Part shown: in pieces, positions 27,186 to 39,192 of the stretch
How the letters are laid out: each line of letters opens with the position of its first letter
Numbering within the stretch: the stretch's first letter is position 1
Origin: Synechocystis sp. LKSZ1
Lineage (GTDB): Bacteria > Cyanobacteriota > Cyanobacteriia > Cyanobacteriales > Microcystaceae
Direction of reading: 5' to 3'
Assembly: GCF_040436315.1 (NCBI RefSeq)
Contig: NZ_AP031572.1
Location: 558,001-622,000 of the forward strand
Length of the DNA: 64,000 nt
Notes under the pieces: generated by a model
Seen by the model: the letters and a program-made list of their open reading frames with translations, nothing else
Databases searched by the model: none
What the model was told of the DNA's origin: nothing
Program-made: the position numbers and the translations under genes

Positions 27186-29189
27186 ATGCGACTCACTCAG
27201 ATGCTCTTGGTCACGTTGCGGGATGACCCGGCGGATGCCGAAATTCCTAGCCATAAACTGCTGTTGCGGGCGGGCTACATTCGGCGCATCGGGAGTGGGA
27301 TTTATGCTTATTTACCGCTGATGTGGCGGGTTTTGCAAAAGGTTTCCCAGATTGTCCGGGAAGAAATGAATGCTACGGGGGCCCAGGAATGTCTATTGCC
27401 CCAACTGCAACCCTCGGAACTCTGGCGGGAGTCGGGGCGCTGGGACACCTACACCCAAGCGGAGGGGATTATGTTTGCCCTCACTGACCGCCAAGAACGG
27501 GAACTGGGCCTGGGGCCGACCCATGAAGAAGTGATCACTGCCATTGCCAAGGATATGATCCGCTCCTATCGGCAACTCCCCGTCAACCTCTACCAGATTC
27601 AAACGAAATTTCGGGATGAAATTCGCCCGCGTTTTGGCTTGATGCGGGGCCGGGAATTCATTATGAAGGATGCTTACTCCTTCCATGCCGATGAAGCGAG
27701 CTTGAAACAAACCTACGCCGCTATGGATCAGGCCTATCGCCGCATTCTGAGCCGCTGTGGCCTTGCCTTCCGGGCCGTCGATGCCGACTCCGGGGCCATT
27801 GGCGGATCGGGTTCCCAGGAATTTATGGTGCTGGCCGATGCCGGCGAAGACGAAGTGCTCTATACCGAGGATGGGCAATACGCCGCCAACGTCGAAAAAG
27901 CGGTTTCCCGGCCCGCCGAGGCAGTGGCTTCTCCCTTTCCAAAACTGGAAAAACGCGCCACCCCTAACTGCAACACCATTGACAGTCTGGCCCGTTTTCT
28001 AGATTGTTCGCCCACTTGTATTGTCAAAAATGTCCTCTACACCGCTGTTTTTGATAATGGTAAAACGGTGCTGGTGCTAGTGAGTATCCGGGGTGATCAA
28101 GCGGTCAATGAGGTGAAACTCACCAACGAATTAACCAAATTAGCCGCCAACTACCAAGCAAAAACCATCCTGGCCCTGACGATTCCCGATGAAGCTAACC
28201 TGGATAAGTTGACTGCTCGACTTTTACCGCTGGGCTATCTGGGCCCAGATCTCAGCGATGACTATATTGATAAGATTCGTTTAGCATGGACAGAAAATGA
28301 TTTACGAAATGAGTTAATTAACCGGACTAGCAAAGACTTTATTAAAGATCTGATTGAGAATCTGAGTCCTGCCAGCAAAGGACTATGGACATGGCAAGAG
28401 ATTAAAAACTACGCTGAGAAGTACAAAAATCGTTACTATGACATATTCGTTGAGCTTATTCGATTGGAGGGAAGCAAACCACAGTCTGAATTTCTGCGCC
28501 TAGTAGATCAAACGGCTGTGGATCTCAAGCATTTTGTCACCGGGGCCAACGAACCCGGCCAGCATCTACTGGGGGCTAACTGGGGGCAAGACTTCCCGCA
28601 ACCTACCCGGATTGTGGATGTGCGGACTGCTCAAGTTGGCGATCAGGCGATTCATGATCCCCAGCAGACCCTTAAAACCGCTAGAGGGATCGAAGCGGGC
28701 CATATTTTCCAATTAGGCACCAAATATTCCCAGGCCCTGGGGGCCACCTACACCAACGAAGCTGGGGAAGAAGTGCCCTTGGTGATGGGTTGCTATGGCA
28801 TTGGCGTTTCCCGTCTGGCCCAGTCCGCCGTTGAACAAAGCTACGACAAAGATGGCATTATCTGGCCCGTGGCTATTGCCCCCTACGAAGTCATCGTGTG
28901 TATTCCTAATATCAGTGATACGGAGCAAGTCCAGGCCGCGGAAACCCTCTACCAAGAGTTACAGACGGCGGGTATTGAGGTGTTGTTGGACGACCGCAAT
29001 GAACGGGCCGGAGTGAAATTTAAGGATGCGGATCTGTTGGGTATTCCCTACCGCATTGTGACCGGCAAATCCCTGAAGGAGGGCCGAGTAGAAGTGGTGA
29101 CGCGGGCCAATAAAGAGGCCCAATTGTTACCCTTAGCGGAAGTCGTGGCGACTCTTAAAAATTGGATTACGGCCGCTAAACAAGCCTAG
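27186..29189 (+). CDS. proS: Prolyl-tRNA synthetase with an unusual internal insertion
   Basis: This class II synthetase charges tRNA-Pro. The bacterial-type protein starts [15 protein letters not shown] and shows the class II motifs ([49 protein letters not shown]). A YbaK-like editing insert lies between motifs 2 and 3, and an anticodon-binding domain follows ([22 protein letters not shown]). It has 667 residues against roughly 600 expected for cyanobacteria. The surplus is a block at about 362-435 in the editing region, after [12 protein letters not shown] and before [15 protein letters not shown]. The reading frame is intact, so the gene is probably functional. MenH starts 2 bases after the stop. 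Confidence 0.93.
28269..28490 (+). other. AT-rich in-frame insertion inside proS
   Basis: These 222 bases encode about 74 residues where other ProS proteins have, from memory, about ten. The codons are clearly AT-richer than the rest of proS (for example many aaa, gat, att, tta). The peptide is charged and helical, with [36 protein letters not shown] and VELIRLEG. It has no intein splice motifs and I see no flanking repeats. Origin and function are unknown. Confidence 0.65.
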
Positions 29190-38064: not shown

Positions 38065-39192
38065 CTAGGAAATAATGAACCGTATTACAATAAATAGATA
38101 ACCTAACAAAGACAAGATTTGAATAAGTTTGCCACCTATCACGATACGATTAATCGTGTGTGCTTTAAAGACTTTCTTATCAGTTTCTAGAATATTTATC
38201 CCCCAAACAAAAAAGAAAAAGACGATCATTGAAACTAAATAACTATGGGTGTATAACTCATCTAAAAATGTTAAATAAGAGGTCAAAGGCAAGCTTTCTC
38301 GATAGGCTTGCTGCATAAAAATCAAGGTTAGTAAAGCCGTGGGTGGAATTGCTAAGCGAGTCTCCCCTAAGCTGACATCTAAACTAGGGGCAATGAGAAC
38401 AATCATCATTACAATAACAATGGGAACAATCCATTTCACAAAAGATGCAAGGGCATTCGTTTGATAAAAGACTTGGACGACTACTTGACTTTTTTGATTA
38501 AATTTCTCCTGAAGGAGTTTAGATTTTGTTCGTTTAATAACAGGTTTAATAGTGGCTCCCAACAGTTGATAGCCATTGATGGTTGAACTTTCACCCAGCA
38601 ATTCTGATTGATCATCAAAGGGAATTAGGACGACATTATTATCCATCAATGATTGTAGAGCTGAGCTTTCTTCTAAAACAAAAGGTAGGATTAATTGATT
38701 AAAGGGAGAGTGATGAAAGTCAAGCTCATTGACATAAAATTGTCCTGAAAATCGATATTTTTGGCGATAGCGTTGATTACCAAGAGCTTCGACGTTGGTA
38801 GTGGCAATTTCAATACTGGAGTTCCAGGGTTCAATTTGATTCGCAAATTGAATTAAATTAAGGCGATCAATCTTATTTTTTGCCACTAAATCTTGAACGG
38901 CTTGGGGCCATTCTAACCAAAAATATCCCCCGGCAAAGTAGGTTTTATCTTTGAGGGAAGGATGGTAAATATTTTCAATATTAACCATTAATTTAATGGG
39001 CAAGATTGATGGAGATTTAAGCTCCTCAGAACTGAGCTGAAATGTCTCTTCTATCAAAGGAAGTTGGAGATCTTTTTGATGACGCCATTCCCTTGGAGTA
39101 GACTGGCTTGAGTGCAGGCCGTAAATCCCCAATAAAATGAATAAACCAATGAAAAATAATAAAAGGTAATTGAGCCTTTTTGAGGTGATCAT
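38065..39192 (-). CDS. Pentameric ligand-gated ion channel homologue (Cys-loop family without the Cys loop)
   Basis: This 375-residue protein has an N-terminal hydrophobic segment (about 8-26), an extracellular beta-sandwich domain (about 40-245) and four helices (about 251-269, 278-297, 305-335, 353-373). The Cys-loop position reads NELDFHHSPFN at 155-165, as in GLIC (L-D-F-x-x-x-P-F). TM1 has the conserved proline (IVPIV). The TM2-TM3 link reads ESLPLTSYLTF, matching the GLIC pattern N-LP-x-x-x-Y-x-T. It contains no cysteine. The gene is much AT-richer than its neighbours and is flanked by AT-rich spacers, hinting at transfer. Ligand and ion selectivity are unknown. Confidence 0.8.
   Translation of the reverse strand: MITSKRLNYLLLFFIGLFILLGIYGLHSSQSTPREWRHQKDLQLPLIEETFQLSSEELKSPSILPIKLMVNIENIYHPSLKDKTYFAGGYFWLEWPQAVQDLVAKNKIDRLNLIQFANQIEPWNSSIEIATTNVEALGNQRYRQKYRFSGQFYVNELDFHHSPFNQLILPFVLEESSALQSLMDNNVVLIPFDDQSELLGESSTINGYQLLGATIKPVIKRTKSKLLQEKFNQKSQVVVQVFYQTNALASFVKWIVPIVIVMMIVLIAPSLDVSLGETRLAIPPTALLTLIFMQQAYRESLPLTSYLTFLDELYTHSYLVSMIVFFFFVWGINILETDKKVFKAHTINRIVIGGKLIQILSLLGYLFIVIRFIIS

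Follow-up and report, generated by a model that had tools for sequence, protein, structure and literature searches.

The window, a stretch of 64 kb of DNA, was found to contain a complete proS gene, whose reading frame opens with an ATG at 27186 and closes with a stop codon at 29187-29189. The class II core, the anticodon-binding domain, the tRNA_edit domain and the invariant residues of prolyl-tRNA synthetase (ProRS) are all present in the product, and the source genome (G000) gives a single proS match at E <= 1e-50. An AT-rich block, referred to here as the insert, lies in frame within the part of the gene that encodes the editing domain. The features of the locus are as follows.

27186 to 29189, plus strand: proS, bacterial-type prolyl-tRNA synthetase, 667 aa (open reading frame, Pfam and solved-structure alignments)
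27960 to 28136, plus strand: tRNA_edit (Pfam), first part of the editing domain, residues 259-317
28026 to 28028, plus strand: Lys281, invariant in 42 aligned ProS
28233 to 28247, plus strand: G-x-x-x-P stretch of the editing domain, Gly350-Pro354, 7 residues before the insert
28269 to 28490, plus strand: insert, 74 residues (362-435), GC 37%, predicted helices (alignment, composition and AlphaFold2)
28506 to 28508, plus strand: Asp441, invariant, in the predicted strand that follows the insert directly
28563 to 28565, plus strand: His460, invariant

The insert is preceded by [12 protein letters not shown] (DYI end, to 28268) and followed by [15 protein letters not shown] (FLRL, from 28491). 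The initial annotation had described an AT-rich in-frame block of about 74 residues inside proS, and composition bears this out at 28269-28490, where GC is 0.374 and GC3 0.38 against 0.54 and 0.60 in the rest of the gene. As to its size, 74 residues do stand at this position, but the usual spacer there is 8 residues in aligned relatives, so that the net gain is only about 66 codons (198 bases). None of the segments of equal length in the rest of the proS ORF is as low as the insert (0/573 in GC and 0/573 in GC3); across the 43 ORFs of the window (n = 1369) the corresponding figures are 1.7% for GC and 2.6% for GC3. The 25 segments of lowest GC in the window fall over the insert itself and in the ORF at 38065-39192. 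This ORF (minus strand, 375 residues, segments of 30-38% GC) is alone among the other genes of the window in being strongly AT-rich; it has no Pfam match up to E 0.1 and a weak PADLOC match to ThsB (E 0.0019). The reading frame of the insert is open, and stops occur in each of the five other frames. By eye, the sequence is charged throughout, with two tryptophans in mid-block and one near the start. No inverted repeat was found inside the insert, and an 11-nt direct repeat (one mismatch, spacing 170) falls within the block and does not bracket it.

AlphaFold2, run on 42 sequences (L157, which carries a stop codon, was dropped from the alignment), modelled the whole ProS well, with a mean pLDDT of 87.6. 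In this model the insert forms helices at residues 370-380, 383-392, 403-412 and 414-428, at a low confidence (pLDDT about 52-64). Folding the insert alone with short flanks gave nearly the same four helices, with one more at each end, and a mean pLDDT of 60. A charged, helical segment had been proposed earlier, and both properties were recovered, the charge by eye and the helices as a low-confidence prediction. We consider the insert to be probably folded and helical, but since the confidence of the model is low, it could be disordered. A structure search of the PDB with the insert model (mean pLDDT 60) returned nine matches, the best at E 6.3, which is uninformative for a model of this confidence.

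As proposed at the outset, the block lies within the YbaK-like editing (INS) domain. This domain is the host of the insert and retains its invariant residues, whereas the block fails to align with it; each of the three solved-structure alignments shown breaks off ahead of the block and resumes behind it. The Gly350-Pro354 stretch is presumably the GxxxP motif of the editing domain. The block starts 8 residues after Pro354, and five residues separate its end from Asp441. Many core columns besides Lys281, Asp441 and His460 are invariant among the 42 sequences. Judging from its local context, Lys281 is probably the counterpart of E. coli ProRS K279; PMC3973320 describes K279A as editing-defective. 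As far as the sequence can tell, the invariant catalytic residues and the presumed editing residues are intact. The initial annotation had also raised an influence on proofreading of Ala-tRNA(Pro); such an influence may exist, with the presumed editing-site residues conserved. Since these residues are intact and the genome holds no second bacterial-type ProS match, it is most likely that the enzyme works and that the module, which is presumably exposed, adds surface to it.

ProS was surveyed in 58 related genomes, the source genome included, and 57 of them gave a match at E <= 1e-50. The match is split around the insert site in 54 of the 56 other genomes, with a gap between the two pieces of 3-21 bases in 52 of these 54 (hand count), 90 bases in G036 and 48 bases in G129. 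The remaining two are G407, where one match bridges the site and includes an insert of its own, and G408, where the single piece comes from a fragment at a contig edge. Four genomes of the same genus (G074, G078, G091 and G386) have 12-18 bases at the site and lack the block. In a ProS tree (FastTree, 49 proteins, gappy columns trimmed; L043 and L049 dropped, L078 left out), the window ProS groups with the same-genus G078 and G074 (supports 0.59 and 0.89). From this placement and the absence of the block in the four congeners found, the gene looks vertically inherited and the block a late addition.

The survey was extended to 176 genomes of the order with an insert-free fragment of the G078 ProS as query, and 161 of them matched. 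Split matches were observed in nine; the ProS of G489 is split over two contigs, and the other eight genomes (G000, G036, G056, G193, G253, G407, G437 and G459) carry an insert at the same loop. The figure of 8/161 counts inserts large enough to split the match, and the match in G514 does not span the site. This particular block was seen in only one of the 161 ProS-bearing genomes. The segment is thus absent from most cyanobacterial ProS, in line with the initial annotation, which took the flanking residues to lie normally close together; any such insert occurs in 8/161 genomes and this one in a single genome. Fifteen of the 176 genomes, G103 among them, gave no match to the bacterial-type fragment at E 1e-20, and 11 of these 15 are at least 95% complete; they may use another type of ProRS.

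Relatives of the insert were sought at several levels. In its own genome it is single copy by both protein and DNA searches, the only two further DNA matches being of 15 and 17 bases (E 2.6 and 4.9). Among 386 genomes of the phylum, 140 (own included) gave a match at E <= 1, the best other one at E 0.002. Twelve of the weak-match loci were inspected, and all proved to be poor alignments to ORFs with no evident kinship to ProS; two protein families recur among these 12, in AT-rich distant relatives. No match was found in the plasmid collection or in PADLOC, the phage collection gave seven records at E 0.9-8 by protein and none by DNA, and none of the 19 pattern stretches in viral contigs or of the 109 in genome contigs was confirmed. 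The best match in PHROGs was at E 0.011, and those among PDB sequences were at E 0.23 or worse. No Pfam model scored above its cut-off, lipoxygenase coming up at E 0.03, with the caveat that HMMER filters remove most matches above E 0.1. The NCBIfam match was to the restriction enzyme HpyAIV (insert residues 41-70, E 0.0072), with 15.8 bits where the cut-off is 160. A captured endonuclease fragment was considered and rejected, the HpyAIV and MspI matches being far below cut-off and the MspI match lying outside the insert. The earlier suggestion of a mobile element found no backing: the block is single copy, has neither bracketing repeats nor an inverted repeat, and nothing like it emerged from the plasmid, phage and viral collections. 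A literature search, largely of open-access papers, found no paper on this insert or on inserts in cyanobacterial ProRS.

The loop that holds the block, in contrast to the block itself, is used repeatedly, an aspect which the initial annotation did not foresee. A survey of the phylum (386 genomes, 364 matched) added G276 to the carriers of a same-site insert, G655 was found through the profile search described below, and Microcoleus L090 and L091 also have inserts there. We aligned 119 ProS rows (30 from the survey of relatives, own included, nine chosen as split or long, and 80 named loci) and observed insertions of at least 8 aa at reference positions 358-367 in 16 rows from 15 genomes, L043 and L078 both being from G036. 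All are cyanobacterial. Elsewhere in oxygenic cyanobacterial ProS, an insertion of at least 8 aa occurs only in L135 among the 119 rows; insertions of 8-13 residues at other places were seen in three Gastranaerophilales rows (L149, L157 and L169), and others in further phyla. The loop just after GxxxP is therefore a recurrent in-frame insertion point in oxygenic cyanobacteria, and its contents differ. PPLxKGG-type repeats occupy it in G036, G193, G253, G437 and Microcoleus L090 and L091, and in a shorter form in G129. In L075, L076, L077, L078, L090 and L091 they are in frame and reach up to 83 residues, and those of G193 are GC-richer than their host gene. Short sequences stand at the loop in G511, L099, L111 and L135. 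The insert of G056 is an AT-rich orphan of about 86 residues, unrelated to the window block; none of 523 segments of its own is as AT-rich, and it has no match in 48 other surrounding genomes. G341, a distant relative in the phylum, has two ProS genes, on contigs 5 and 25 (L202 and L203), neither with an insert.

In four genomes (G407, G459, G276 and G655), the loop holds a domain of about 77 aa, which we call A4. Those of G407 and G459, 79 residues each, are homologous, with a local alignment score of 179 where shuffles averaged 24.5. A related form is present in G276 and G655. Scored with the family profile, G276 obtains 22 bits, whereas the highest value among 276 decoys was 6 bits and that among shuffled versions of G276 was 10. 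The A4 profile, from which L193, L194, L195 and L199 were dropped, matches 56 of 388 genomes of the order at E <= 0.02. By length of the matching ORF, 32 of these have a short ORF of 98-164 residues (among them L174-L178, L182, L184-L192, L196-L198), 14 a long one of 713-1017 residues (L207, L209, L210, L213-L221, L223, L226) and four a ProS, and the other six give marginal matches only (E 0.002-0.02). The stand-alone proteins gave no model above cut-off (four peptides against Pfam, three against NCBIfam). In all 14 long ORFs the domain follows an LNRVW stretch and an MSKSK signature, with a best match of 90-102 bits. The two that were scanned with Pfam are both leucyl-tRNA synthetases (LeuRS), with editing domain, class I core and Anticodon_1, and the name for the other 12 rests on the shared motifs. 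In these two, A4 follows the core and precedes the Anticodon_1 match, and neither CAAD nor any other Pfam model covers it. Our literature search, again largely open-access, found no domain appended to LeuRS other than CAAD.

Pairwise dN/dS among six LeuRS A4 domains was 0.09-0.45 in 14 of 15 pairs; the exception, L217/L219, gave 0.93 at a synonymous divergence of only 0.04. The domain in LeuRS thus seems to be under purifying selection. Between the ProS inserts of G276 and G655, dN/dS was 0.063/0.217 (about 0.29), against 0.053/0.377 (0.14) in the 150 residues that follow; the region upstream was misaligned and was left out. In composition, the G407 and G459 inserts do not differ from their host genes and, for this reason, are either of local origin or older. 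The ProS tree places G407 and G459 together (0.54), apart from G276 and G655, which group with Scytonema and Calothrix (0.995), and this separation suggests that A4 was gained in ProS at least twice.

Taking these observations together, we consider it probable that the block is a small, likely all-helical module that was acquired in frame, from AT-rich coding DNA of foreign origin, once this species had separated from its sampled congeners, and that entered the loop of cyanobacterial ProRS which tolerates insertions best. The capture site would be the loop that joins the GxxxP stretch to the strand following it in the INS editing domain. As no donor or homologue was found, capture, and with it the foreign origin of the block, is deduced from composition and distribution. 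The initial annotation had listed a captured gene fragment among its options; foreign coding DNA has become the best reading, while the collections searched yielded no donor. Two observations on other same-site inserts go against this reading, namely the dN/dS of the G276/G655 insert, which exceeds that of the following 150 residues, and the lack of any composition anomaly in G407 and G459. By analogy with CAAD, the module would leave aminoacylation largely intact and could provide a surface on which the acceptor arm of the tRNA, another protein or an RNA docks, much as CAAD provides membrane anchoring. Unless the insertion is neutral, docking would on this analogy be its most likely function.

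According to PMC4893482, CAAD is a membrane anchor found in class I synthetases of cyanobacteria, acquired repeatedly and patchily distributed (102 of 279 genomes), and the enzymes without it are class II or are TyrRS and TrpRS, all dimeric or tetrameric. The insert resembles it in being a lineage-specific in-frame piece of a cyanobacterial synthetase. It differs in that CAAD was found in that study only in class I enzymes, whereas the insert, a charged segment, belongs to the editing domain of a class II synthetase, and no CAAD/CURT1-type model was found in Pfam for either the insert or the whole ProS. Like the palindromic REP/RPE elements treated in PMC3733652, the block is an in-frame addition to a conserved gene, tRNA synthetases being among their hosts; unlike those elements, which are repeated and palindromic, it is single copy and has no inverted repeat.

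The captured module might itself be a very diverged member of the A4 family, which is compatible with capture and would specify what was captured. We regard this as a real possibility, though one that falls somewhat short of an even chance. The insert occupies the same ProS loop as A4 in G407, G459, G276 and G655, its length is similar (74 against 78-79 aa), its four predicted helices are matched by a sequence pattern in A4 that, by reading, also hints at four, and short-ORF members of the family exist in the same genus (G074 and G386). A profile that includes G276 and G655 gave the insert 4.9 bits in the expected register over residues 21-37 (17 residues, envelope 8-55), a score that 7 of 4000 protein decoys and 13 of 2000 shuffles equalled or surpassed. 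With G276 alone added, the score was 5.5 bits, which 1 of 277 decoys and none of 286 shuffles attained, and one further profile was equalled by 2 of 276 decoys. These better scores are partly selected, since several profiles were tried. The top-scoring local alignment between the insert and G276 runs colinearly through residues 4-54, but its score of 31 was reached by 14% of shuffles. The first A4 profile placed the insert out of register, at 4.2 bits, a level that 11 of 4000 decoys and 14 of 2000 shuffles also attained. One restricted to the inserts in synthetases gave 3.0 bits, which 8 of 278 decoys attained as well, whereas G276 as a true member stands far higher at 22 bits. In hhalign the insert was again aligned out of register, with probabilities of 0.4% and 1.6%, while four true A4 members that had been left out received about 98%. 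The A4 search of the 388 genomes of the order gave no match in G000. The insert thus shares its loop and a similar length with the A4 domains of ProS, and its predicted helices would fit their pattern, but 3.0-5.5 bits against the family profiles and an hhalign probability of 0.4-1.6% fall short of establishing a similarity in sequence.

An origin of the block by neutral expansion, in which junk or repeat DNA stayed in frame in a tolerant loop and has no function, appears unlikely to us. The loop does accept differing contents, low-complexity repeats included, and because of these PPLxKGG-type repeats presence at the loop does not imply function. The block is moreover confined to one of the sampled species, and repeat insertions into conserved genes, some tRNA synthetases among them, are on record in PMC3733652. 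On the other hand, the block is single copy and free of internal inverted repeats; it is charged, bears tryptophans, is predicted to form helices and is not of low complexity; and A4 appears to be under purifying selection elsewhere while occupying this same site in ProS.

Much less probable is an element removed after transcription or translation, be it an intein, a small intron or a translational bypass. A discrete block in an essential gene might call such elements to mind, but the models that Pfam matches in the entire ProS include no intein, a scan of 27900-28900 against Rfam was empty up to E 1, no stop interrupts the reading frame, and the site is a variable loop, not an active-site motif. 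An intein would, in addition, not fit into 74 aa, which is too short. A sequencing or assembly artefact, suggested by the occurrence of the block in only one sampled genome, is similarly improbable given that the source assembly is a single-contig genome listed as 100% complete, that the block is in frame, and that comparable blocks stand at the same site in other assemblies.

Returning to capture, it would not be unreasonable to propose, if only tentatively, that cyanobacteria possess a second synthetase-appended domain besides CAAD. This would be a small helical domain, perhaps winged-helix-like, related to stand-alone proteins and captured independently by the editing-domain loop of ProRS and by LeuRS, there just ahead of the anticodon-binding domain, with the window insert as a far-diverged or fresh member that couples these enzymes to an RNA or protein partner. 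Synthetases are among the most conserved enzymes, and a loop that takes pieces of about 10-85 residues of different origin would mark a point of docking or tolerance in the proofreading domain. That one small domain occurs in both ProRS and LeuRS suggests a repeated coupling of synthetases to other partners in cyanobacteria, comparable to the link with membranes that CAAD provides. The odd block in the window would then be one case of a wider pattern that is absent from the literature searched. With regard to the A4 domain itself, we also observed that profile positions 51-77, which cover its last helix, resemble residues 135-161 of a derivative of the I-CreI homing endonuclease over a 27-residue match, with a best E of 1.9e-4 and of about 0.5 for several I-CreI entries.
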